This document shows, one piece after another, positions 92 to 11,850 of a stretch of 11,850 nt of DNA (the first letter of the stretch is position 1; each line of letters begins with the position of its first letter). The notes below the pieces were generated by a model. It was not told the origin of the DNA. It ran no database searches and saw nothing but the letters and a program-made list of their open reading frames with translations. Both the position numbers and the translations under genes were made by a program. The DNA is from Chloroflexi bacterium UBA4733 (GTDB lineage: Bacteria > Chloroflexota > UBA4733). The DNA lies in contig DHIZ01000122.1 in assembly GCA_002404055.1 (NCBI GenBank), forward strand, positions 1-11,850. The letters are read 5' to 3'.

Positions 92-484
92 TCAGAACGG
101 CAGATCATTGCCGCTCACCACCTGTCCGTCAACGGCGTCGGCGGCTTCGCCGCTCGGGCGGCGGTCCAGCAGCACCACGTCGCTGGCGACGATCTCGGTA
201 CTGTGATGCTGCTGGCCGTCCTGGCCGGTCCAGCTGCGATAGCTCAGGCGGCCGGCGATGTAGACCAGGCGACCCCTGGCCAGGTACTGATTGGAAAACT
301 CCGCCAGCGCTCCGAAAGCCACGACACGGTGCCAATCGGGACCGGCGCTGTCCTCGCGCTTGCTCGTGCGGCGATCGGTGGCGAGGGAGAACGTGGTCAC
401 CGGTTGACCGTTCGCGGCGTAGCGCATCTCAGGTTCACGGCCTGTACGGCCAATTAACTGGACAAGATTGAGAGAATTTGCCAT
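92..484 (-). CDS. ssb: Single-stranded DNA-binding protein (SSB)
   Basis: Binds single-stranded DNA during replication, repair and recombination. The 130-aa product opens with MANSLNLVQLIGRTGREPEM, typical of bacterial SSB. An OB fold spans about residues 1-107, including the AGRL and EIVASDVVLL strands. It ends in NDLPF, an acidic-hydrophobic tip like the usual DDIPF that docks partner proteins. The linker between fold and tip is only about 20 residues, so the protein is shorter than the common 160-180 aa form. The start at 484 is preferred over an in-frame ATG at 529 because AAGGAG lies 7 nt upstream and the extra 15 residues are not SSB-like. It is the last complete gene of the minus-strand cluster, downstream of a Rad52-family gene, which suits an element-encoded SSB rather than the housekeeping copy. 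The family call is very secure; its status as a second copy is inference. Confidence 0.96.
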   Translation of the reverse strand: MANSLNLVQLIGRTGREPEMRYAANGQPVTTFSLATDRRTSKREDSAGPDWHRVVAFGALAEFSNQYLARGRLVYIAGRLSYRSWTGQDGQQHHSTEIVASDVVLLDRRPSGEAADAVDGQVVSGNDLPF

Positions 485-516
485 CGAAAAGCTCCTTGTC
501 ACTGCTCCGTTTCGCG

Positions 517-537
517 CCGGCGGGAACATCCCGCCGG
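517..537. repeat. Perfect 9-bp stem, 3-base loop hairpin between rad52-like gene and ssb
   Basis: CCGGCGGGA and TCCCGCCGG are perfect inverted arms around ACA. The hairpin sits in the 75-bp gap between the Rad52-like stop and the ssb start. No T-run follows on either strand, so it is not a standard intrinsic terminator. It could stabilise the downstream ssb message or mark a processing site, which is inference. Confidence 0.7.
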
Positions 538-559
538 GCGGCGCTGCGTTCGCCGCACC

Positions 560-1240
560 TCAGGCGGCGCGCTGGCGGCTCAACGCCTCTGCCATGGCCC
601 GCAATACCCGAGCGAGGTCGCCCGCCTCCAGGCTGGCGAAGGGTCGCCCGGCTTTGCGGGCGGCGTGCTCGCGCGTGGCCGCCGCATCCAGCCCGAATCG
701 GGCGCCGAGCGACAGCGTGGCGGCGCGCAACTCCTCGAGGGCACGCGCTCCGGCGACACGGGTGGGGTCGGCGCGGTCATACAAGCCGTTACCGAACTGC
801 TCGCCCAGTTGCCGCAGCGCCCGCTTCAGCCCATCCGTCACTGCCGCCTTGATCGCCGTGTCGTGGCTCTCCGGCGTGGCGTCTTCCGCGCAGCCACAGC
901 CTACGTCGGTCTTCGTCGGCCCCAGATGGACCTGGACGCGGACGGTGGCCCAGTAGAGATCCACCGTGTGGGTTTCGCCCGACTTGGGGTCAAGGCGGCG
1001 CAGTTCACGTGTCTGCACTGGCCCCAGCACCGCCGAGGACCACCCGCCGAAACCGAAGATGCGGTTGGCCTGGGTGATCGCCTGGTGTCCCTCCAGGTAG
1101 GGCAGCAGCTGGCCCTTGCTGCCATGGCGCCGGCAGACCAGCGCGGGATTGAGCGGCTGCCGCAGCAGCGCGACGATCGCCGCCGGCAGCGGATCGATCA
1201 CCGCTGGTGTGCTGCTGTCCGGCGGCAATGGTTCCGGCAT
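560..1240 (-). CDS. Rad52/Rad22-family single-strand annealing protein
   Basis: Members of this family (Pfam Rad52_Rad22, PF04098) anneal complementary single strands and support RecA-independent recombination, often in phages and plasmids. The 226-aa product carries the family core. Residues 48-68 hold YLEGHQAITQANRIFGFGGW, and residues 126-154 hold HDTAIKAAVTDGLKRALRQL followed by GEQFGNGLY. The C-terminal 70 residues are helical and Arg/Ala-rich. The start at 1240 has AAAGGAG 6 nt upstream. A longer version from the ATG at 1279 would overlap the primase stop as ATGA but has no ribosome site. It follows the primase gene by 35 bp and precedes ssb, its expected ssDNA partner. Family assignment is strong; its role in element recombination is inferred from the neighbours. 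Confidence 0.9.
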   Translation of the reverse strand: MPEPLPPDSSTPAVIDPLPAAIVALLRQPLNPALVCRRHGSKGQLLPYLEGHQAITQANRIFGFGGWSSAVLGPVQTRELRRLDPKSGETHTVDLYWATVRVQVHLGPTKTDVGCGCAEDATPESHDTAIKAAVTDGLKRALRQLGEQFGNGLYDRADPTRVAGARALEELRAATLSLGARFGLDAAATREHAARKAGRPFASLEAGDLARVLRAMAEALSRQRAA

Positions 1241-1246
1241 GCGTTG

Positions 1247-1253
1247 CTCCTTT
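1247..1253 (-). promoter_or_regulatory. Shine-Dalgarno site deciding the Rad52-like start
   Basis: AAAGGAG on the minus strand lies 6 nt before the ATG at 1240. It selects this start over the ATG at 1279, which overlaps the primase stop codon but lacks any purine-rich upstream site. Confidence 0.75.
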
Positions 1254-1275
1254 CTTGAGCCGACGTGGTCGCCGC

Positions 1276-2355
1276 TCATGCGGCACGAGCGCCGGCCGCT
1301 GGCGCCGCCGGCAGGCGAGACACGATCCCGGCGAAGATCGCCTGCCCATTCGGACAGCGGGCGAGCTCGGCGACATCCTTCACGCCGATTGGTAGGCTGA
1401 CCTGCTGCGTGCTCGGACCGAGCGCCTTCGCCAGATCGCCGGCCGCCGCCTGTCCGGCCTCGTCGTTGTCGAGGACCAGAGTGACGGTCTGGAAGCGATC
1501 AAGGGAGCGCAGCACTTCCGGTCGGACGTGGGTACCGACCAGGGCGAGCGCAGGGTAGTCCCACTGCCGGAGCAGCAGCCAGTCAAACGGCCCTTCGGTG
1601 AGAAAGACGACGGTTGCGCCGGCCGTGTCCTCCCAACCCAGCAGTGGCTTTGGTCCCGACAGGCCGAGGTAGCGGCGGCCGGCAGCGTCAGGAGCGATCG
1701 TGCGACCGATGAGCCAGATTGGTTGCCGGTTGCGCAACTCCGGTACGACCAGGCGGCCGGCCAGACGTTCGTGGCCGTCCCGGTCGAGCAAGCCCACCCG
1801 CCTGGCCGCGGCAACGGACAGCCCCTGACGCCGCAGCTCGGGCTGCAAGGTGTCCCCGACTGCGTAACCCAGGCGGTAGCGCACGATGGTGTCCCGCGTC
1901 AGGCCACGCTGCGCCACGTAGGCTCGGGCGCAGGGCGCAGTGAGCAACTGGTGGTGATACAGCGCCACTGCGGCGGCAACAGCGGCCCGTTCCGCCGTTT
2001 CCCAGGGCAGCGAGCGCCGGCGTGCCCCAGGCGAAACGCTGTTCCGCCCGGTCGCTCCGCAGGTCGTGGTCGCCGGCCGTGGCGGCGCGCCTGCCAGCAG
2101 TTCGACGGCGCGGCGGAAATCGATCCCCTCCATCCGCTGGACGAAGTCCAGCACGTCACCGTGGGCGCGACAGCCGAAGCAGTGAAAATGGTCGTCGCGT
2201 GGATCGACCAGCAGGCTGGGCTCGTGATCGTCGTGGAAGGGGCAGCAGCCCAGCAGCACCCAGCCGCCCGGACGGAGCGCCACCCCATAGCCGGCCACGA
2301 CAGCGGGCAGGGGATGGGCGCGTTTCAACTCGGCCAGCTCACTCCGCGAGCGCAT
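1276..2355 (-). CDS. DnaG-like primase with CHC2 zinc finger and TOPRIM domain, short form
   Basis: Probably synthesises RNA primers on single-stranded DNA. A CHC2-type zinc site is visible at C38, H41, C59 and C62 (CPFH ... CFGC). The RNA-polymerase core region includes GRLVVPELRNRQPIWLIGR at 200-218. The TOPRIM motifs follow: E254 in TEGPFD, D296 and D298 in LDNDEAG, and a KDVAE segment at 326. At 359 aa it is far shorter than cellular DnaG (about 600 aa) and has no room for the C-terminal DnaB-binding domain, as in plasmid or phage primases. The ATG at 2355 has GGAGG 9 nt upstream and follows the helicase stop by 18 bp, so co-transcription is likely. The adjacent helicase is a UvrD type, not a DnaB type. 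The family call is strong; the element-specific role is inferred. Confidence 0.92.
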   Translation of the reverse strand: MRSRSELAELKRAHPLPAVVAGYGVALRPGGWVLLGCCPFHDDHEPSLLVDPRDDHFHCFGCRAHGDVLDFVQRMEGIDFRRAVELLAGAPPRPATTTCGATGRNSVSPGARRRSLPWETAERAAVAAAVALYHHQLLTAPCARAYVAQRGLTRDTIVRYRLGYAVGDTLQPELRRQGLSVAAARRVGLLDRDGHERLAGRLVVPELRNRQPIWLIGRTIAPDAAGRRYLGLSGPKPLLGWEDTAGATVVFLTEGPFDWLLLRQWDYPALALVGTHVRPEVLRSLDRFQTVTLVLDNDEAGQAAAGDLAKALGPSTQQVSLPIGVKDVAELARCPNGQAIFAGIVSRLPAAPAAGARAA

Positions 2356-2373
2356 GACGCTGCGCCTCCGTGC

Positions 2374-3801
2374 TCACGCCGCCCGCGCGAGCAAGCCGGC
2401 CGGCAACCCCGTCAGAAAGCGGGAGGGGCGGCAAAGGAGGCGCCGGTGGGTACCCGCGCCGACGCCCGCAGGGCGGCCGTGGTGCTGCCGCCGCTGCCGG
2501 CAGCAGGTCAGGTACAAGCGCATGCGTGGCCGCGTGACCGCCACGAAGGCCAGTCGCAGTTCCGCGAGCAGGTCTTCCTCTGCGCCGCTCTCGATAGCGT
2601 GGTAGTGCGGCAGGAGCCGTTCCTCCATACCCACCAGGAACACCACCGGCCACTCCGCGCCCTTGGCCTGATGGATCGTGGAGAGCCAAACGGTCGCCTC
2701 TTCGGCAGCGTGCTGGACGGGCGCCCCGGCTTGACGGAGCGTTCGCGCCAGGACCTCGCGCTGCTGGTTGAGGCGGTACAGCACGGCGATCTCGCCCGCA
2801 TGGGCGACCGCGCTCGTCCGCAGCAGTCGCCGGATCTCGGCGGCGACGAAGCCGGCCTCGTCCTCCTCATCCGTGGCGACGAAGACCCGGACCGGCTCTC
2901 CCGGCGAGTTCGTCGTCCAAAGCGGACCCTCCGCGCCGAGCGGCGCCCCAAGCGCGTTGGCGAAGGCAACGATCTGGCCGCTGGAGCGGAAGTTCTGCGC
3001 CAGACGCACGACCCGGCGTTCCGGGAACTCCACGCCAAAGCGCTGGAGCACTTGGCCATCCGCTCCTCGCCAGGCGTAAATTGATTGTCGGGGATCCCCC
3101 ACCAGCACCAGCTGGCGGTGCGTCGCGGCAAGTTGCTGGACGAGCCGGTATTGGGCGAGACAGCAATCCTGGGCCTCGTCACAGAGGATCACCTGGTAGC
3201 GGTCACGCACCAGCCGCAGCGTCTCCGGCTGTTCCCGGAACAGGCGCAAGGGCCAGGTGAGCATCGCCGGATAGTCCACCGCCCCGTACCGTCGGAGCAG
3301 GCCTTCATAGGCGGTCAGCAGCGCCGACCACGGGGGAATCGCCGGGACGCCGTCCTCGCTGCGGCGAAGCTGCTCCAGACTGGCGGCCAGTTCGGCCGGC
3401 GACCAGCGCGTGAGGTCCAGGCCCACGTCGTGCGCGGCACTGTGCAGGAGCTGCGTCGCCTGGCTGCTGGTGAGCACCGAGACCGCTCCCGGCGCCAAAC
3501 CGAGCGCCGCAGGCCACTGGCGGATCAGGCGCAGTCCCAGGGAGTGGAAGGTCGCCACGTCTACGCGCTGTCCTGGCTCGTCGAGCACCCGGACCAGGCG
3601 GGCGCGCAGTTCCTGCGCCGCCCTGGCGGCGAAGGTCAGGGCTAGGACGTGCTGCGCCGGAATCCCCCGCCGCCTGATCAAGTAGGCGACGCGGGCCGCC
3701 AGCACCAGGGTCTTGCCGCTGCCCGGCCCGGCCACGATCAAGAGCGGGCCGGGCGGAGCGCCAACGGCGGCCTGTTGCTCGGTGGTCAGCCCTGGCAGCA
3801 C
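2374..3801 (-). CDS. UvrD/PcrA-type superfamily 1 DNA helicase, compact
   Basis: An ATP-driven 3'-5' type helicase. From the GTG start at 3801 the 475-aa product shows, in order, LTTEQQAAV (Q motif), VAGPGSGKT at 23-31 (Walker A), TFAARAAQEL at 56-65, TFHSLGLRL at 84-92, DEAQD at 208-212 (Walker B), GDPRQSIYAWRGA at 235-247, QNFRSS at 269-274, STIHQAKGAEW at 374-384 and AFVAVTRPR at 418-426. It is much shorter than UvrD/PcrA (about 720 aa), with reduced 1B and 2B insertions. The frame is open back to 4155, but that stretch is read in another frame by the 115-aa gene and is not helicase-like. The GTG has GGAGG 10 nt upstream, follows the Q motif closely and overlaps the upstream gene by 16 bp, suggesting coupling. 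The last 40 residues are Arg-rich and unassigned. Confidence 0.93.
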   Translation of the reverse strand: MLPGLTTEQQAAVGAPPGPLLIVAGPGSGKTLVLAARVAYLIRRRGIPAQHVLALTFAARAAQELRARLVRVLDEPGQRVDVATFHSLGLRLIRQWPAALGLAPGAVSVLTSSQATQLLHSAAHDVGLDLTRWSPAELAASLEQLRRSEDGVPAIPPWSALLTAYEGLLRRYGAVDYPAMLTWPLRLFREQPETLRLVRDRYQVILCDEAQDCCLAQYRLVQQLAATHRQLVLVGDPRQSIYAWRGADGQVLQRFGVEFPERRVVRLAQNFRSSGQIVAFANALGAPLGAEGPLWTTNSPGEPVRVFVATDEEDEAGFVAAEIRRLLRTSAVAHAGEIAVLYRLNQQREVLARTLRQAGAPVQHAAEEATVWLSTIHQAKGAEWPVVFLVGMEERLLPHYHAIESGAEEDLLAELRLAFVAVTRPRMRLYLTCCRQRRQHHGRPAGVGAGTHRRLLCRPSRFLTGLPAGLLARAA

Positions 3802-4133
3802 GGGTCCGGCCCCTCCGGTGTGCCATCCAGCTCCTGCCAGCGCAGATACAGCGCCGCAGCGCGGATCGACCAGGCGGGTACCCGCTTGCGGGTGCTGTTC
3901 CCGGCGCCCGTCCCATCGAGCAGGCTGCGGATACAGGCCAGATCCTCGGCCTGGGACATGTCGTTGCCGCGCAGCAACTCCCAGCGCGTGGGATAGCGGC
4001 GCAGCCGGGCGAGCGTTGCGTACAGGGCAGCCTCCACGTAAACCCGGGGGTAGCCATTGCGCAGCACCAGGGCGTGCTGCCCATGCCAGCCTTCGACCTG
4101 CAGACGATAGAAATACCTGCGACGAGCATCCAT
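3786..4133 (-). CDS. Small protein of unknown function upstream of the helicase
   Basis: I do not recognise this 115-aa protein. It is basic in the first half, with aromatic residues in MDARRRYFYRLQVEGWHG, then VYVEAALYATLARLRRYPTR, an acidic-helical centre (SQAEDLACIRSLLDG) and AAALYLRWQELDG near the end. There is no signal peptide, membrane segment or zinc motif; two cysteines occur next to each other near the C-terminus. AAGGAG lies 5 nt before the ATG at 4133. It overlaps the helicase start by 16 bp in another frame, so it is probably co-translated with it and may act in the same replication module. That it is real is supported by the ribosome site, the coding-like composition and the position; its function is open. 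Confidence 0.72.
   Translation of the reverse strand: MDARRRYFYRLQVEGWHGQHALVLRNGYPRVYVEAALYATLARLRRYPTRWELLRGNDMSQAEDLACIRSLLDGTGAGNSTRKRVPAWSIRAAALYLRWQELDGTPEGPDPCCQG
3812..3816 (-). promoter_or_regulatory. Shine-Dalgarno site supporting the GTG start of the helicase
   Basis: GGAGG on the minus strand lies 10 nt upstream of the GTG at 3801, inside the end of the upstream 115-aa gene. It supports starting the helicase just before LPGLTTEQQ rather than at the far upstream in-frame codons. Confidence 0.55.
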
Positions 4134-4190
4134 GCGGTTCTCCTTGCCGAGTCAAGTCCTCACCTCCTGACTGATCGCGCCCGGCCGCAG

Positions 4191-6534: not shown

Positions 6535-6903
6535 TTACCTTCCCACCCGTACCGCGGCCGTCGCCTCTTGCACCAGCCGCAGCAGATCGGGCTGCTGGTG
6601 TTCCTCTGCAAGCGCCTGCCAGTCTTGCAGGGAGGCGGCAACGGCACGGTCGCCGTTGCGGCGTGCGACGGCCTGCATGATCTCTTCGATCCACAGCCCG
6701 GTTTCCGCTGCCAGTTCCGAGTAGGTCGCCTCCTCGCGCAGCCAGCGCTCGGCAGCGTCGTCCAGCAACACCTGGCGCGTCACCGCCTCCACTGCCCTGG
6801 ACAGGAAGGCGCCCGGCGCCTGATGGGTCAGGCGGGCCGCACGCTCCACACGCTGGACAGCGGGAGCGTCGAGCTCAATCGTGACGACTTGCTTCTCATC
6901 CAT
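6535..6903 (-). CDS. Putative antitoxin with ribbon-helix-helix-like N-terminus
   Basis: A 122-aa acidic, mostly helical protein. The N-terminus, VTIELDAPAVQRVERAARLT followed by HQAPGAFLSRAVEAV, has the strand-helix-helix pattern of RHH DNA-binding antitoxins. The middle (TYSELAAETGLWIEEIMQAV) resembles the segment in PIN-associated antitoxins that blocks the toxin. The ATG at 6903 has GGAGG 6 nt upstream and overlaps the end of the PIN gene by 8 bp, so the two are translationally coupled. The order is toxin first, antitoxin second, the reverse of classical VapBC. It probably binds and neutralises the PIN protein and represses the operon. The pairing is well supported by overlap; the exact family is not named. 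Confidence 0.75.
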   Translation of the reverse strand: MDEKQVVTIELDAPAVQRVERAARLTHQAPGAFLSRAVEAVTRQVLLDDAAERWLREEATYSELAAETGLWIEEIMQAVARRNGDRAVAASLQDWQALAEEHQQPDLLRLVQEATAAVRVGR

Positions 6904-7408
6904 GCTCCGCCTCCTCTCTTTGCATGATAACGGTCGCCAGGCGCCGTCGTGCTCGCTGCAGCAACACCGGACTCATCGTGCCCGGGGCCGTGAGCAGGGC
7001 GAGTAGGCGCTCGGCTTCGTGCACATCCAGTGTTCCTGCCTGAAACCAGGCGACGACCAGCAGGGGACTGCACACCACCCGAATACCGTGTGCTTCCGCC
7101 CAGTCGAAAGGCCGGCGATCATCAAGGAGCAGCACCCAGTCAGGATGCTCCAGCACCAGGTTGATGGTCGCCCGTTCGCCAGGACCGAACATGCCCACCC
7201 GATCACCGTCCGGCTCTTCTCGTTGCAGTTCTCCGCTCTGAGCGAGGCGGCGGAACTCCCGACCGCTGGCGAAAGAGATCGGCAGTTCCAGCGCCACCGC
7301 CGGTGCGTACCGGAGGGTGTAACGCGGCAAGATCATCGGCAACAGTCCGGCGCCGAAGACGTGGACCCAGAACGACGTATCAAACGCTGCCGGTGGCTCG
7401 CCAACCAT
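6896..7408 (-). CDS. PIN-domain protein, putative VapC-like toxin ribonuclease
   Basis: A 170-aa predicted PIN-domain nuclease. Acidic residues occur where the family has its metal-binding set: D10 in AAFDTSFW, E41 in APAVALELP, E78 in GPGERATINLVL, and D96/D97 in LLLDDRRPFDWAEAHGIRV. The pattern fits the COG2405/DUF3368-type PIN proteins, whose members include Mg-dependent RNases in toxin-antitoxin pairs. The start at 7408 has AAGGAG 5 nt upstream; longer in-frame starts up to 7519 give a non-PIN-like extension. It overlaps the downstream antitoxin gene by 8 bp. A dyad at 7472-7503 in the upstream region could be the autoregulatory operator. The fold is fairly secure; toxicity and target are inferred. 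Confidence 0.82.
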   Translation of the reverse strand: MVGEPPAAFDTSFWVHVFGAGLLPMILPRYTLRYAPAVALELPISFASGREFRRLAQSGELQREEPDGDRVGMFGPGERATINLVLEHPDWVLLLDDRRPFDWAEAHGIRVVCSPLLVVAWFQAGTLDVHEAERLLALLTAPGTMSPVLLQRARRRLATVIMQREEAEHG

Positions 7409-7471
7409 TGTCGCTCCTTCCCGGTGGTTTCGGCCTTCCACGCCGCCGTGCCAGGGACCATCGACTGTTGA

Positions 7472-7503
7472 CCAGCAGCAGTCGCGCATTCGCGGTCTGC
7501 TGG
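7472..7503. promoter_or_regulatory. Dyad upstream of the PIN/antitoxin pair, possible operator
   Basis: CCAGCAG and CTGCTGG form 7-bp inverted arms, with an inner CGCG-CATT-CGCG. The dyad lies about 65-95 bp before the PIN start, a plausible site for autorepression by the RHH-like antitoxin. The symmetry is seen directly; binding is inferred. Confidence 0.4.
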
Positions 7504-7917
7504 CAGGGAGCACGCCCATCGGCGCGAGGACAGAGACGCGACGGGACGGTCGAATGACTGCCGGTGAGTACCGTGCAGGCGGAGATCACCGAGGCGATCT
7601 GGAACCTACTCAGCATCCGGCGTGACGGCATCTCGGTCGTACTGCACGTGGGCCTGGGCGTCTTTGCCGCTGATGGGACAGGGGATCATTCGCACGCTCT
7701 TTCGCTTGCCGTACCGGTGTCCTTTCTCTAGCGCATTTCCAATCCCGTAACCCTGATCGCCGAAAGTGGAGAGCACGCTCGTTTTCGATCCACCTTGCAG
7801 CGCGGCCGAGCCGTGCCGTTGGTCGCCTTGTGGAGGAACTCCCGGGTGGGCGACCATCCCGACGGCTTTGGGGAGAAAGCCGTAAACCATACACTCGCGC
7901 TGAGGATACCGGGTCTT

Positions 7918-7950: not shown

Positions 7951-8045
7951 CGTCGCCAGGCCCGGTCGCCCTGTTGAACGGCGCGAAAGGAGACGAAGTA
8001 ACTTTCACGCGATCAGGGCTGCTGCACTGGTCAAATAGTCGGACC

Positions 8046-8378
8046 TTACGCACGGGTAGCGACGAACGCCCCCGATTGCAGCACCGGGGCCGCGGTGGCC
8101 CTGGTGCTGCAATCGGGGGCGATGACGATGTCCCGCTGCAAGCCGCGCTGCCGAAGTTCCTTGCCCGAACTGCACGCATGGAGTTGCGACAACAGATCGG
8201 AGGCAGCAGCGCGGAATGCGGCGGCGGCCGCGACGGCTTCGGGGGAGGGCGCCGCCGCTTGCAACGCCGCGATGACGGCGCCGGCTCCGACCAGATCCTC
8301 GAAGCAAGGATGCAACGGTCCTTCGCCCGCGCCCCAGCGTTCGCCTGCCGCAATTACCGTCACCGCGCCGCTCGTCCG
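8046..8378 (-). pseudogene. Truncated ComB-family (2-phosphosulfolactate phosphatase-like) gene, 3' half
   Basis: The frame ending in TAA at 8046 reads like the C-terminal half of ComB-family phosphatases. It has VTVIAAGERW, a FEDLVGAGAVIAAL segment, an Ala-rich helix, then LLSQLHACSSGKELRQRGL, DIVIAPDCS and AAPVLQSGAF. Full ComB proteins are about 230-240 aa; only about 110 residues remain and the N-terminal half is absent. The frame stays open upstream to 8466, but the residues before about 8378 are not ComB-like and coincide with a plus-strand transposase remnant, so the gene was probably cut there. A GTG at 8363 could start a short product but has no ribosome site. The family is recognised by pattern; a profile search should confirm it. 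Confidence 0.7.
8067..8121. repeat. Long near-perfect palindrome inside the ComB remnant
   Basis: Arms 8067-8085 and 8103-8121 are perfectly complementary over 19 bp (CGCCCCCGATTGCAGCACC on the left). The interior (8086-8091 with 8097-8102) pairs further with one G-T, leaving a 5-base loop. The stem is thus about 25 bp. It lies in the conserved C-terminal coding region. No T-run follows on either strand. Confidence 0.9.
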
Positions 8379-8379
8379 C

Positions 8380-8554
8380 CACGCCGCCTGGTACCAGAAG
8401 ACCCAACCTATTTTTGCAGATGCGCTTACCCTGGTGCGCCGCGAACTCTGGACCCTCGGGCGCTTTTATGCCTTGTTCGCGCGACCCCGATGTCGTGAAA
8501 CTCCTACGGAAGTTCCTGGAGTATCTGACCGAGACCCTCTGCTACGCCGCTTAA
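8380..8554 (+). pseudogene. Frameshifted C-terminal remnant of a DDE transposase
   Basis: From about 8380 the plus strand reads AAWYQKTQPIFADALTLVRR then ELW, a pattern I know from the C-termini of insertion-sequence transposases common in Chloroflexota and cyanobacteria. The expected ending, DPDVVKLLRKFLEYLTETLC then YAA and a stop at 8552-8554, appears in another frame, so a frameshift lies at about 8465-8485. The N-terminal catalytic part is absent. The remnant abuts the point where ComB similarity ends, indicating that the insertion removed the 5' half of that gene. The exact IS family is not assigned. Confidence 0.6.
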
Positions 8555-8603
8555 AAGGCCAAAGTCGAGCTTACATGCGTAAGACTCCCGCGGTTCCTGG
8601 ATA

Positions 8604-9212
8604 CTACCGTAACAGCAGGAAGACTGCCGCCGGCACCGCCGCGCCGATGATGCCGCCGCCGACCACCTGTGCCGGAGTATGCACGCCCAACTCCACCCGG
8701 GCCCAGGCTACCAGGGCAGCGAGCAGTTCGAGCACCAGCAACGGCGGACCGAAGATGATCGCCAGGATCAACGCCGTGGCGGCGACCGTGCCGGTGTGGA
8801 TGGACATCTTCCAGATGAGGGTGATCAGCAGACAGACGGTGGCGCCGACGATCATCGCGACAAGCAGGACCACTAACTCACGGGGAGCGCCGAGCCAGAT
8901 CAGCAGCAGCACACCACAGAAGATCGCGCCGAGCGCGACCAGCAGCGGCGCCAGGCGCTGCTCGCGCAGGCGGACGTGGCGATCGGTCAGCCGGCCGCGG
9001 CGCACGCGCTGCAAGACGAAGGCCAGGGGAACGGCGCAGACGACCAGGACGGTGAGGGCCGCCCAACGCAGACCGGCAGCCGGGGAAGCAGAGCTTTGGA
9101 GGGAAACGGCGACTAACAGGATCGCGGCGACCGGCGCGGGGGCCAGGATCTCCGTGATGAGGCGCGCGAGTCGCTGACGGCCGGGCATTCGTGAAGGTGA
9201 CGTGGCCGTCAT
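8604..9212 (-). CDS. PAP2-like multi-pass membrane protein (degenerate phosphatase motifs)
   Basis: A 202-aa integral membrane protein with about six hydrophobic segments (roughly residues 24-38, 50-68, 88-106, 113-134, 142-170, 185-201). The RRGRLTDRHVRLREQR loop, then WKMSIHTGTVA (K135, H139) and WARVELGVHTPAQVVGG (R172, H178), match the second and third signature regions of PAP2 (type 2 phosphatidic acid phosphatase) proteins. The first signature, KX6RP, is not visible and SGH is replaced by SIH, as in a subgroup annotated PAP2 in Chloroflexota and actinobacteria. Lipid-phosphate hydrolysis is therefore possible but unproven. Its ATG at 9212 overlaps the upstream stop as ATGA with no ribosome site of its own, so translation is probably coupled to the DUF6545 gene. 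Confidence 0.8.
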   Translation of the reverse strand: MTATSPSRMPGRQRLARLITEILAPAPVAAILLVAVSLQSSASPAAGLRWAALTVLVVCAVPLAFVLQRVRRGRLTDRHVRLREQRLAPLLVALGAIFCGVLLLIWLGAPRELVVLLVAMIVGATVCLLITLIWKMSIHTGTVAATALILAIIFGPPLLVLELLAALVAWARVELGVHTPAQVVGGGIIGAAVPAAVFLLLR

Positions 9213-10462
9213 TGCGAACGGCGTTGCATGGACAACGTACCGCGCTGCTCGAGGGCGAATGCGGCGACCACTTGTCGCACAATTGGTGAGTGCCGAAAGC
9301 AGCGTGCGAGACGCTCCAGGGAAGCGATCTCACTTGGTAGGTCGGCGGAGGCGAAGGAGGGAATGCCGGGCAGAGCATCCACCACCGCCGTGCCGCGAGC
9401 ACAGGGTGCACGCATGGCGACAGCGAGTTCCGCCGCCTCCAACACGGCCTGGATCTCGGTCTCTGGAAGGCCCGCTGTGCCTGCAAGTTCCCGAGCATAC
9501 GCTGCTGCTCCCGGATCCATGTGGGGACGCAGGAGCAACACGCCGTCGCGGATCTCCACGACGCGACGGTAAAGCCGGAAGTCCACGCGCCGCCAGTTCA
9601 AGAGGTCGGACAGACGCGATGCCGGGGGATCCAGGGCAATCGCCGCATCGAAGCGGTACAGCGTTTGCCAGAGCGGGTACAGGCGCTGGAGGGAGCGGTA
9701 CTGGCCCAACCAGGTGCTCAGTGCTTCCAGTCGGAGGCGGGAGCCCCAGAAGGCGACCGTCGTGCTGGCCAGACCGACCACGATGAAGGTCGCCAGCAAG
9801 ATGGCGGAAACGGCGGCTGGATGCGGCAAGGGATCGGCGTGTCCGAAGCGAACGCTTGCCACCCGCAGTCCCTCATTCATCACGTAGGCCAGCCCGAGAG
9901 CGGACGATGCTGCCGCGAGCCGGAGGCTGAGACGCAGGACGGCCCGGCGGGCGAGGGTGGCATAGCGCCAGAAGAGGCGCGCCGCGTTGACCATCCCCAG
10001 GCCGAGGAAGGCGAGGAAGACCACACGATACTCGAAGATGAAGGGCGTGCGCGCGTAACGCCCCGTGAAGTCGAGCGCCTCATCAGGCAACCAGGCCAGC
10101 GAGAAACAGACCGCCATCAACAGCAGAACGAGCAGGAGGACCAGACCTAGGATGCGCGTCCGCCGGGTTGCCGCTCCCAGCGGGAAGGTGAGATGGAACA
10201 ACAACGCCTGCGCGCTCCAGGAAGCAACCAGACCAGAACCGTCGCCCAGTAGCCGAGCGAGATTGGGCACCCTGCTCCAGCGGTCGATGGTCAGATACGT
10301 CTGGGGGAGCAGAACAGTCAGCGCCAGCGCGAGGCAGAGCAGCGTCAGCCAGTGATAGCGGCCAGCAGGATCAGCGAAGCGCCGGCGCAGTGTCCCCGCC
10401 TTGTAGGCAACCACGACCCAGGCCAGAGCGGCGATGGCATCCATCGGCGTCAGCGCGATCAT
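9209..10462 (-). CDS. DUF6545 / MAB_1171c-family 7-TM membrane protein
   Basis: A 417-aa protein with seven predicted membrane helices (about residues 7-23, 36-57, 77-96, 103-124, 141-165, 177-204 and 218-241) followed by a soluble C-terminal domain of about 175 residues. That domain starts SRLRLEALSTWLGQYRSLQ and contains RVDFRLYRRVVEIRDGVLLL, the segment I associate with DUF6545 in the actinobacterial MAB_1171c family, annotated as putative transporters without experimental proof. The family is often found beside ImmA/IrrE-type genes, as here. The ATG at 10462 overlaps the metallopeptidase stop as ATGA, with GAGG about 8 nt upstream, and its own stop overlaps the PAP2-like start. It could be a sensor or the target of the peptidase rather than a transporter. 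The topology is secure; the family is fairly secure. Confidence 0.82.
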   Translation of the reverse strand: MIALTPMDAIAALAWVVVAYKAGTLRRRFADPAGRYHWLTLLCLALALTVLLPQTYLTIDRWSRVPNLARLLGDGSGLVASWSAQALLFHLTFPLGAATRRTRILGLVLLLVLLLMAVCFSLAWLPDEALDFTGRYARTPFIFEYRVVFLAFLGLGMVNAARLFWRYATLARRAVLRLSLRLAAASSALGLAYVMNEGLRVASVRFGHADPLPHPAAVSAILLATFIVVGLASTTVAFWGSRLRLEALSTWLGQYRSLQRLYPLWQTLYRFDAAIALDPPASRLSDLLNWRRVDFRLYRRVVEIRDGVLLLRPHMDPGAAAYARELAGTAGLPETEIQAVLEAAELAVAMRAPCARGTAVVDALPGIPSFASADLPSEIASLERLARCFRHSPIVRQVVAAFALEQRGTLSMQRRSQ

Positions 10463-11031
10463 GCCCGGGCCTCACTATCACCGGCCATGATGCCGTCAAC
10501 CCGGTGGAGTTCGTCTGTCTCCGCATCGCGTGAACCGTTTCCAGCGGCGAAGACGGCTTGCTTCAAGATGAGTGAAGCGAGCGCCTCTACCTCCCGCTCT
10601 TCGTCCGTCGTGTAGTTCGCGCGGCGGAACACGAGATGTACGCTGGCCGCACAGACGTCCGGACCCAGGACGTTGGCGATCTCGTCCTCCAGCACCGCCA
10701 CTGGTTCGTGGCCGAGCCAGAGATGACAGAGTTCGTGCAGGATGATGTGCTCCCGGTGCAACGGCGACGTCTCGGAAGAATAGACGATGACGTCGATGGG
10801 ACCACTGGGAACGCACAGGCCGGCGAGACGCGGCATGCGCCGCACCGGCTGCAGCCTGATCGGGCGGCCACGCCGGGTGCTGATGGCACGGGCTAATTCC
10901 TCGATGTCGAACGGCGTCGGTACGGGCAGCTCGCTCAGACCGTGCTCACAGCGCTGGAGGAGCGCCTCGAAGCGCTCGCGCCGAGCATGCGGTTCTGGGC
11001 GAGCAGCGGATGCTGATCGGCGGAGAGGCAT
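10459..11031 (-). CDS. ImmA/IrrE-family zinc metallopeptidase
   Basis: A 190-aa protein with the zincin motif HELCH at residues 99-103 (in HREHIILHELCHLWLGHE) and a downstream EREVEALASLIL helix in which E149 is the likely third zinc ligand. ImmA/IrrE peptidases cleave or inactivate XRE-type repressors in mobile elements and in the radiation response. The N-terminal 35 residues are Arg-rich; residues 40-62 (FDIEELARAI ... RGRPIRLQPV) match the helix-strand region preceding the zincin core. The start at 11031 has AGGAAG 9 nt upstream and lies 4 nt after the stop of the XRE gene, its natural partner. Longer starts overlap the XRE gene out of frame and are not peptidase-like. The protease family is strong; cleavage of the XRE partner is inferred. 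Confidence 0.9.
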   Translation of the reverse strand: MPLRRSASAARPEPHARRERFEALLQRCEHGLSELPVPTPFDIEELARAISTRRGRPIRLQPVRRMPRLAGLCVPSGPIDVIVYSSETSPLHREHIILHELCHLWLGHEPVAVLEDEIANVLGPDVCAASVHLVFRRANYTTDEEREVEALASLILKQAVFAAGNGSRDAETDELHRVDGIMAGDSEARA

Positions 11032-11035
11032 TGGC

Positions 11036-11515
11036 TCACGCTTCCTGCGCCGGCTGGCGCGGTGGCCGGCCACGGCGTGGCCGGGGCGTTTCCGGCTCCG
11101 GCAGCCCTTCCAGCTTCCGCACATTCTCGACGATATCGGCAATGGCACGCAAGCTTTCGGCCGAGAGGCCGAAAGCCCGTAGGGCAATGTGCCGCACGGG
11201 GGCGTCGCGTAATGCTGCCAGCAAGTCCAGTTCGGCATCGATGCGCTCGACCGCGCTCTCGTCGAAGAAGTAGGCCGGCGTGACGCCGAAGAACTCGGCG
11301 AGCGCCTCCAGGTGATGCTTCGTGGGGTTGTCCCGCAGCCCCTTGCGCAGTTGCCAGAGGTAGGTCGCCGAGATCGTTGGCCCGCCGCGCGTCCGGATCG
11401 CCTCGGCTACTTCCTCGAAGCTGTATTCACCCCGGTTGCGCGGGTGGATGGTATGAAAGAGGCGATCAAGCTTGTCTGCCAAATTCTTCGAGCGTGCCGG
11501 TTCCGGATTCGTCAT
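11036..11515 (-). CDS. EspR-like XRE helix-turn-helix regulator with AT-hook-like tail
   Basis: A 159-aa DNA-binding protein. The N-terminus (ADKLDRLFHTIHPRNRGEYS) and the HTH region at 32-85 (FEEVAEAI, SATYLWQLRKGLRDNPTKHH, LEALAEFFGVTPAYFFDE) closely follow the plan of mycobacterial EspR. A helical dimerisation-type segment follows (90-137). The end, PETPRPRRGRPPRQP, contains an RGRP core like an AT-hook, which EspR lacks. The start at 11515 has AAGGTG 5 nt upstream; the frame is open further up but the extra residues are not conserved-looking. It heads a four-gene operon with the metallopeptidase directly behind it, the usual repressor/anti-repressor arrangement. It may control its own promoter and the divergent plus-strand gene; this is inferred. 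Confidence 0.88.
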   Translation of the reverse strand: MTNPEPARSKNLADKLDRLFHTIHPRNRGEYSFEEVAEAIRTRGGPTISATYLWQLRKGLRDNPTKHHLEALAEFFGVTPAYFFDESAVERIDAELDLLAALRDAPVRHIALRAFGLSAESLRAIADIVENVRKLEGLPEPETPRPRRGRPPRQPAQEA

Positions 11516-11585
11516 CCTCGCACCTTGGATCCCCGCTGCGGTCGTGCTCCACCAGGGTCGATTCGCCAGTCGTGATGTTGGTGGG

Positions 11586-11591
11586 ACTATA
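11586..11591 (-). promoter_or_regulatory. Extended -10 promoter element for the XRE operon
   Basis: The minus strand reads TGGTATAGT, an extended -10 with TG one base before TATAGT. No good -35 is seen. Transcription from here would give a leader of roughly 65 nt before the ATG at 11515. A GTGG-N7-CCAC dyad (11581-11595) covers the -10, and CCACCA (11549-11554) pairs with TGGTGG (11579-11584). Either could be an operator for the XRE protein. Confidence 0.5.
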
Positions 11592-11642
11592 CCACGGCCA
11601 CAAACTGGCGCGTGTAATGCCGGCCTGATCTCCGTATGCTTG

Positions 11643-11672
11643 TTGACGTAATCCTTCACTTCCGCCTATATT
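11643..11672 (+). promoter_or_regulatory. Sigma-70-like promoter for the divergent plus-strand gene
   Basis: TTGACG (11643-11648) and TATATT (11667-11672) are separated by 18 bp, with AT-rich sequence after the -10. The next gene starts at 11716 with AAGGAG 6 nt before it, giving a leader of about 35 nt. Confidence 0.6.
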
Positions 11673-11715
11673 ACAAAAATCATTACCTGCTTTCCTGAGT
11701 CTTAAGGAGCCAGCC

Positions 11716-11850
11716 ATGGCCGCGCGAACGCTCACGCCATCCCGCGCGCTGCACCGTTCGCGTCAGGTCGACCTGCGTGCCGTGCTGGGTCTCTTCATCC
11801 TGCTCGTTGCCACAGTGGGGGCGGTGGTCGCCTGGAGCGGGGCCACCAAC
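11716..11850 (+). CDS. Membrane-anchored protein, N-terminus only; probably SAF-domain (CpaB-like)
   Basis: The first 45 codons of a gene cut by the window edge. AAGGAG (11704-11709) lies 6 nt before the ATG. The product has a basic N-terminus (ARTLTPSRALHRSRQVDLRA) then one hydrophobic helix (VLGLFILLVATVGAVVAW). This layout, with RQVDLRAVLG before the helix, is what I associate with SAF-domain proteins of Chloroflexota related to the pilus-assembly protein CpaB/RcpC; the SAF domain itself would lie outside the window. It is the only convincing intact plus-strand gene here and is divergent from the XRE operon. The start and the membrane segment are secure; the family is a guess from the first 45 residues. 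Confidence 0.65.
   Translation, partial: MAARTLTPSRALHRSRQVDLRAVLGLFILLVATVGAVVAWSGATN

Follow-up and report, generated by a model that had tools for sequence, protein, structure and literature searches.

The window analysed here, 11,850 nucleotides of Chloroflexi bacterium UBA4733 (contig DHIZ01000122.1), carries on its minus strand a cassette of four genes that includes a membrane protein of the DUF6545 family. The first gene encodes a putative repressor, an EspR-type XRE protein of 159 amino acids (11036-11515). It is followed by the genes for an ImmA-like metallopeptidase of 190 amino acids with the motif HELCH (10459-11031), for the DUF6545/MAB_1171c-family membrane protein of 417 amino acids (9209-10462) and for a PAP2-like membrane protein of 202 amino acids (8604-9212). 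The XRE and ImmA genes are separated by 4 nucleotides (11032-11035), and the two following junctions are ATGA overlaps (10459-10462 and 9209-9212). Coordinates and family matches thus confirmed the set of four genes, with one short gap and two overlaps, that had been given in a preliminary description of the locus. The promoter region of the cassette is common to a divergent plus-strand gene, which was absent from that description, as were the minus-strand location of the cassette and the operator-like sites. This gene (11716-11850) is cut by the window end and encodes the start of an RcpC/CpaB-like protein of Flp/Tad pilus assembly, whose 45 visible amino acids share 49% and 51% identity with RcpC of two related loci (L004 and L005, respectively).

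Proteins of the cassette

The XRE protein of the window matched EspR (3r1f) with an E-value of 8.4e-26; residues 7-138 were aligned to residues 3-133 of the chain, i.e., to the helix-turn-helix and the C-terminal dimerization part. The ImmA-like protein scored 21.4 bits for Peptidase_M78 and had no significant match among solved structures. In other loci of the Chloroflexota type, the Peptidase_M78 score of the ImmA protein was 18.2 bits (L003), or no match was found (L004 and L005). The HExxH motif was present in all 102 proteins upstream of DUF6545 (window included), and a glutamate downstream of it, which in ImmA/IrrE peptidases is conserved and serves as a metal ligand, was found in 94% of the aligned ImmA rows. 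The family and EspR matches support the pairing of an EspR-like XRE with ImmA that had been proposed before. PADLOC assigned weak matches to both proteins, capH to XRE (25.6 bits) and capP to ImmA (13.9 bits). No gene of a cyclic-oligonucleotide-based antiphage signaling system (CBASS), in which CapP-CapH membership would place the pair, was recognized among the eight window proteins scanned.

The membership of the third protein in its family was clear from PF20182 (111.9 bits, cut-off 24.4) and from the NCBIfam MAB_1171c family NF042915 (196.1 bits, cut-off 100). Its seven membrane helices lie inside residues 5-242, followed by a helical cytoplasmic part beyond about residue 245. Two predicted models suggested an N-out/C-in orientation and a seven-helix arrangement resembling that of G-protein-coupled receptors (GPCRs). 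Six residues were invariant across 94 DUF6545 proteins, all of them past residue 260 and hence in the cytoplasmic part, and DUF6545 was the only Pfam family that matched all 94 members. Among the listed structural matches of the models there was no known bacterial seven-transmembrane receptor and no transporter fold, both of which are absences only. The NCBI name of the family is “putative transporter”. In Mycobacterium abscessus, knockout of MAB_1171c lowered biofilm by about half, and in passages of that report the export of biofilm constituents is discussed (PMC8707978). The loss of biofilm would be compatible with a surface role. DUF6545 and PF20182 were absent from the open-access literature searched, where MAB_1171c appeared in one paper; subscription journals and preprints lie outside that scope, and a description of the system may exist there. 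For ImmA/IrrE in combination with EspR, PAP2 or Streptomyces, no relevant paper was among the listed matches from this literature.

A near-constant protease partner and a variable enzyme slot

The neighborhood of DUF6545 was surveyed with an alignment of 44 DUF6545 proteins as query. Genome contigs gave 425 encoding stretches, the survey was confined to the 80 best loci among them, and neighboring genes were recognized with profiles from the window genes and their matches in these loci. The 80 loci contain 84 DUF6545 genes, counting once the gene of L066, which is split across reading frames into three pieces between ImmA and a PAP2-like gene. ImmA was directly upstream in 83 of the 84, and the single exception starts at a contig edge. 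EspR-type XRE genes were found upstream in 59 cases, and PAP2-like genes directly downstream in 18, 3 of which were fused to DUF6545. Overlaps of 4 nucleotides recurred between the ImmA and DUF6545 genes in 31 of 102 cases (relatives and window) and between the DUF6545 and PAP2-like genes in 13 of the 18 cases without fusion (counting the window). A terminator scan gave no signal (2 candidates found, 2.0 expected).

In a sample of 296 actinobacterial genomes, 10 carried DUF6545, at 25 places; the centre genome, selected for its DUF6545, is counted among the 10. In 20 stretches of this sample covering 23 DUF6545 genes, ImmA was upstream of 18, XRE upstream of 9 and a PAP2-like gene downstream of 2. 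Three of the five genes lacking ImmA were second copies of tandem DUF6545 pairs. Such pairs behind a single ImmA gene were seen in L121, L122 and L123, and the two receptors might pair as a heterodimer. Among 400 genomes of the Chloroflexota phylum, 4 carried DUF6545, again including a centre genome chosen for it. In a remote genome of this phylum, ImmA adjoins a divergent DUF6545 gene, and no XRE or PAP2-like gene was recognized there. At L231, where DUF6545 matched below the threshold, no cassette gene was recognized either. Thermomicrobia, Dehalococcoidia and other Chloroflexota are among the named relatives of the DUF6545 and PAP2-like proteins, which would place the host in this phylum. 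Some record titles disagree with the loci: L003 is titled Proteobacteria, yet its genome and a Chloroflexi metagenome-assembled genome (MAG) were sampled as members of one phylum; L001 is titled Propionibacteriaceae, yet its locus is of the Chloroflexota type; and L022 is titled Rhodococcus rhodnii, yet its DUF6545 protein hardly differs from the one in Kibdelosporangium aridum (L023).

The adjacency of DUF6545 and ImmA put forward in the preliminary description was therefore found to be nearly universal in the nearest loci and also to occur in the remote Chloroflexota-phylum genome. The co-occurrence with PAP2-like genes did not extend to most loci: with 18 of 84 nearest genes and 2 of 23 in the actinobacterial sample, the PAP2-like gene is not a constant part of the cassette. 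A fixed four-gene unit was thus ruled out in favor of a variable slot downstream of DUF6545.

The PAP2-like protein, which matched PF01569 with 30.2 bits (cut-off 27.2), conserves R86, S137, H139, R172 and H178. The lysine of PAP2 motif 1 is replaced by H79 (30 of 31 rows linked to DUF6545 and 32 of 54 unlinked rows), and the aspartate of motif 3 by Q182 (84 of 85 rows); glucose-6-phosphatase also has glutamine at this position, in a weak alignment (E 0.018). Among 117 DUF6545 homologues, the 10 long ones (at least 587 amino acids) all carry a C-terminal PAP2-like domain as judged from the alignment, 7 of them with a Pfam PAP2 match at E < 0.1. Gene coupling and fusions thus bore out the link between DUF6545 and PAP2 that had been noticed in the window. 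Quick trees with long branches were calculated for 31 linked and 54 unlinked PAP2 domains and for 116 DUF6545 rows. In the PAP2 tree, 30 linked rows fell on one side along with 8 unlinked rows, while the fusion protein P0117 from a ktedonobacterial MAG nested among unlinked rows (SH-aLRT 99), and well-supported branches forced at least 5 changes of the link. In the DUF6545 tree, the PAP2 link had to change 7 times, with 2 of these changes forced by well-supported branches, and 6 changes between fused and separate genes were needed. The forced changes in both trees and the placement of P0117 therefore point to repeated origins of the partnership, at least one fusion having originated independently.

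PAP2-like proteins are not restricted to DUF6545 loci. At E ≤ 1e-5 they were found in 140 of the 400 Chloroflexota-phylum and 88 of the 296 actinobacterial genomes, tallies in which some matches span the C-terminal third only and few candidates were scored per genome. They are far commoner than DUF6545, and the idea of a DUF6545-only family was ruled out. In 20 fetched stretches around PAP2-like loci lacking DUF6545, picked from the stronger matches, no ImmA, EspR-type XRE or DUF6545 gene was present. To see what else occupies the slot, 73 of 95 downstream frames were scanned with Pfam; most remained unmatched, and some of the frames are probably spurious. The matches comprised P450 (4), ArsR-type regulators (4), aldo/keto reductase (3), amidohydrolase (3), amidase (2), GH1 (2) and the FAD-binding monooxygenase type (2). 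Accordingly annotated gene orders occur on two Streptomyces plasmids, one with HTH, “toxin” (the ImmA gene), MAB_1171c and P450, the other with two DUF6545 genes followed by amidase and FAD-dependent monooxygenase genes.

Divergent pilus genes and operator-like half-sites

The divergent gene encodes RcpC/CpaB (PF16976, 57-69 bits) in all five loci of the Chloroflexota type (L001-L005), which come from four genomes, L002 and L005 sharing one. Where the flank was long enough (L002, L003 and L005), RcpC/CpaB is followed by a ParA-type gene, a T2SSE ATPase (174-177 bits) and T2SSF (38-42 bits), which is the order of Flp/Tad operons. In the whole survey, 76 of 109 listed divergent frames were scanned, the 5 RcpC included. 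The actinobacterial frames differ, the matches being to I36-family secreted proteins (4), to BTAD-type regulators (3) and to further families once each. In L008, L012, L035, L059 and L061, the divergent frames upstream of XRE resemble small secreted proteins. Such secreted or I36 products could be targets of the switch or even its signals.

Upstream of XRE, inverted half-sites with the consensus CAGTTGAY / GTCAACTG lie about four helical turns apart and overlap two divergent promoters. GTCAACTG or its complement occurred in 33 of 69 regions upstream of XRE (0.5 in shuffles) and GTCAACT in 40 of 69 (0.8 in shuffles). Pairs of CAGTTGAY...RTCAACTG matching in at least 13 of 16 letters peaked at start-to-start distances of 44, 45 and 46 bp, with 9, 9 and 11 cases as compared to 0.3, 0.35 and 0.2 in shuffles. 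No pair at 41-46 bp was present upstream of 33 cassettes lacking an upstream XRE. On the opposite strand, the right arm forms the -35 box of a promoter directed away from XRE (L002 and L004: TTGACA-17-TATATT); once this was apparent, a reading of the motif as the -35 and -10 boxes of XRE itself was dropped. A divergent promoter of this kind was found in 47 of the 69 loci; among these 47, half-site 1 was present in 29 (background 4.1%), half-site 3 in 19 (2.8%), both in 16, and an extended -10 for XRE in 9, with none in the background stretches tested.

The control region can be aligned across six Chloroflexota-type loci. In the window, half-site 2 (GTCAACAA, 11640-11647, minus strand) holds on its plus strand the -35 box of a sigma70-like promoter directed towards the pilus gene (TTGACG-18-TATATT, 11643-11672, plus strand, 10 of 12 matches). 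This was the sole sigma70-like site found in 8000-11850, with 0.4 expected. Half-site 1 (CAGGTAAT, 11682-11689, minus strand) is located 42 nucleotides from half-site 2, and half-site 3 (CAGTTTGT, 11600-11607, minus strand) lies on its other side. The presumed promoter of the XRE operon has the extended -10 TGGTATAGT (11586-11594, minus strand) at an offset of +53 from half-site 2, as in L001 and L004. A repeat finder returned one 9-nucleotide direct repeat and one imperfect palindrome in the promoter region, neither of which corresponds to the half-sites.

The strict operator pattern was then counted in 15 genomes. It was found at 13 distinct places in 11 genomes, 12 of which coincide with cassettes by coordinates, and the reversed pattern used as control at 1 place. 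Matches at cassettes were expected, since the pattern was derived from those loci; the informative part is its rarity elsewhere. Owing to this rarity, the repressor appears to be local, unlike EspR. The sole match outside a cassette, L226 (G704:C116:164936-164985), is a long near-perfect palindrome.

A proposed membrane-linked repressor switch and its relatives

From the gene set, its coupling, the fusions, the operator-like sites and the divergent pilus gene, all obtained by comparison, we infer the following regulatory and signaling steps. The EspR-type XRE would bind the regularly spaced inverted half-sites and repress its own operon together with the Flp/Tad-type pilus operon. The membrane bundle of DUF6545, a putative seven-helix receptor, would detect a ligand or a state of the membrane, and its conserved cytoplasmic part would switch the ImmA-like protease, as is suggested by the near-fixed gene pair (83 of 84) and by the topology of DUF6545. 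As in the PprI-DdrO and CapP-CapH systems, active ImmA would cleave XRE, so that both promoters fire. The PAP2-like protein would be an exchangeable enzyme whose most likely substrate is a lipid or prenyl phosphate on the cytoplasmic side, and its activity may be the effector or a feedback that ends the signal. According to passages of PMC10904395, PprI of Deinococcus cleaves DdrO, is activated by single-stranded DNA (ssDNA) and requires a C-terminal GAF-like domain for this activation; CapP-CapH is described there as alike, and CapP is also activated by ssDNA. Since an ImmA protein of 190 amino acids has no room for a GAF-like domain, a separate sensor is plausible. The membrane sensor upstream of a protease-released repressor that had been suggested earlier is in line with these considerations, on such indirect grounds. 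The cassette probably controls its own operon and the neighboring pilus genes. That it is a self-contained sensor-protease-repressor cassette with an exchangeable enzyme and the pilus operon as likely target is, in our estimate, evenly balanced between right and wrong.

Several observations weigh against this interpretation. The Peptidase_M78 score of the window ImmA is just below the gathering cut-off of 22 bits. Foldseek alone gave no DUF6545 match under E 0.001 (best E 0.044), and a GPCR-like fold in itself says nothing about function. XRE is absent upstream of 25 of the 84 DUF6545 genes, most cassettes lack a PAP2-like gene, and most PAP2-like genes lack DUF6545. Half-sites 1 and 3 of the window are imperfect (6 of 8 letters each), the pair of half-sites 1 and 2 scores 12 of 16, a value reached by shuffled regions in 7.8 of 69 cases, and neither promoter nor operator pattern was found in L003 by the strict search. 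Motif counts are, in addition, inflated by related loci.

The half-sites may instead be promoter elements or sites of another regulator, with the pilus operon a neighbor through shared ancestry only. The arms indeed contain TTGAC, part of a -35 box, the five Chloroflexota-type loci from four genomes represent one lineage, and L003 lacks the pattern. The same half-sites with the same spacing, however, occur upstream of actinobacterial XRE genes with unrelated divergent genes and are missing upstream of the 33 cassettes that have no upstream XRE, which makes this explanation fairly unlikely. DUF6545 may also be a transporter or assembly factor, with ImmA acting on DUF6545 or XRE independently of sensing. 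The family name and the biofilm phenotype of the MAB_1171c mutants are in accordance with such a role, whereas the models predict a receptor-like seven-helix fold with a large conserved cytoplasmic part and the listed structural matches contain no transporter fold, the latter again an absence only; a transporter is regarded as unlikely.

A DNA-damage switch responding to ssDNA like PprI-DdrO or CapP-CapH, with the membrane proteins as merely regulated output, would agree with the weak capH and capP matches, with the ssDNA activation of PprI and CapP reported in PMC10904395 and with the SSB, Rad52-like, primase-like and UvrD repair-type genes in the same window. Mere output would not need coupling to the protease in nearly every locus while XRE is so often absent upstream, and ImmA is too short for the domain that PprI needs for activation by ssDNA, so that such a switch is considered distinctly unlikely. 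XRE-ImmA pairs are also used in defence, toxin-antitoxin or mobile-element settings, and a plasmid annotation names the ImmA gene “toxin”. The preliminary description had named defence or element control as options, which the searches did not bear out: in tblastn with the window protein, by which close relatives only are detectable, 0 of 50,697 phage records, 11 of 72,556 plasmid records and one viral contig matched, and PADLOC returned only the weak capH and capP matches and a 16.8-bit match to PDC-S70 in another window gene. A module of this kind is highly improbable.

Other features of the window lie downstream of the cassette. The gene with the weak PDC-S70 match (6896-7519, minus strand) encodes a protein of 207 amino acids without a Pfam match and adjoins a gene for a 122-amino-acid protein; the two are possibly a toxin-antitoxin-like pair. 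At about 8070-8120, approximately 480 nucleotides downstream of the PAP2-like gene, inspection by eye revealed an extended and almost perfect inverted repeat around CCCCCGATTGCAGCACC / GGTGCTGCAATCGGGGG. At 92-4155 (minus strand), consecutive genes encode SSB, a Rad52/22-type protein, a DnaG-type primase with zinc finger and Toprim, and a UvrD-type helicase. This row resembles a replication or repair module, perhaps of mobile-element origin.

With a seven-helix membrane protein as its almost invariable partner, the protease would open a protease-released repressor switch to signals from outside or from the membrane; the protease-released repressors treated in passages of PMC10904395 respond to DNA damage inside the cell. 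In its broadest form, the proposal would be that DUF6545 is an unrecognized class of bacterial seven-helix receptors that switch a cytoplasmic metalloprotease destroying a dedicated EspR-type repressor. One operon would then comprise the receptor and its protease, the repressor with its operator, and a signal-matched enzyme that is exchangeable and in some cases fused; in Chloroflexota, it would control Tad-type pili. This wider proposal is tentative and somewhat likelier to fail than to hold. The family spans actinobacteria and Chloroflexota, and its ligand and targets are open to direct tests by way of the predicted operator, the pilus operon and the exchangeable enzyme.

Bacterial seven-transmembrane receptors include 7TMR-DISM, 7TMR-HD and BtsS. 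By model and charge pattern, DUF6545 likewise combines seven helices with a cytoplasmic output part, but most members match no Pfam family except DUF6545, and the output seems to be a protease encoded by a separate gene instead of a kinase, cyclase or HD domain that is part of the receptor chain. With Flp/Tad pilus operons, L002, L003 and L005 share the divergent RcpC/CpaB, ParA-type, T2SSE and T2SSF genes; the difference is that the pilus genes of the Chloroflexota-type loci stand head-to-head with the cassette and have a promoter region in common with it. To our knowledge, and with no search aimed at this point, no regulator of this kind has been described for Tad pili. Compared to the PAP2 phosphatases PgpB/YodM, LpxE and glucose-6-phosphatase, the PAP2-like protein keeps the order and spacing of the three motifs and the conserved Arg, Ser, His, Arg and His, and differs in motif 1, where His takes the place of Lys, in motif 3, where Asp is replaced by Gln, in its predicted active site on the cytoplasmic face and in its frequent coupling or fusion to DUF6545.

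EspR of Mycobacterium tuberculosis matches the window XRE over nearly the whole chain and is, in passages of PMC3315491, a dimer of dimers that is thought to bridge sites and that has an inverted repeat in its own promoter. Inverted half-sites and, as predicted for the window XRE, autoregulation are features in common, and the binding mode of EspR would be compatible with the spaced half-sites found here. The predicted half-site of the window XRE is CAGTTGAY as opposed to TTTGC[TC][GA], there is apparently one local operator as opposed to hundreds of EspR sites, and the gene is, unlike that of EspR, coupled to ImmA and a membrane protein. PprI(IrrE)-DdrO, CapP-CapH and ImmA-ImmR resemble the cassette in that an ImmA-type protease with HExxH stands beside an XRE repressor, proteolytic derepression being probable; the cassette differs by the EspR type of its XRE and by the lack of a CBASS gene among the window proteins scanned. 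Set beside these systems, the cassette appears to be a protease-released repressor switch in a variant form, combined with a receptor-like membrane protein, an exchangeable enzyme and, here, a pilus operon as the likely target.

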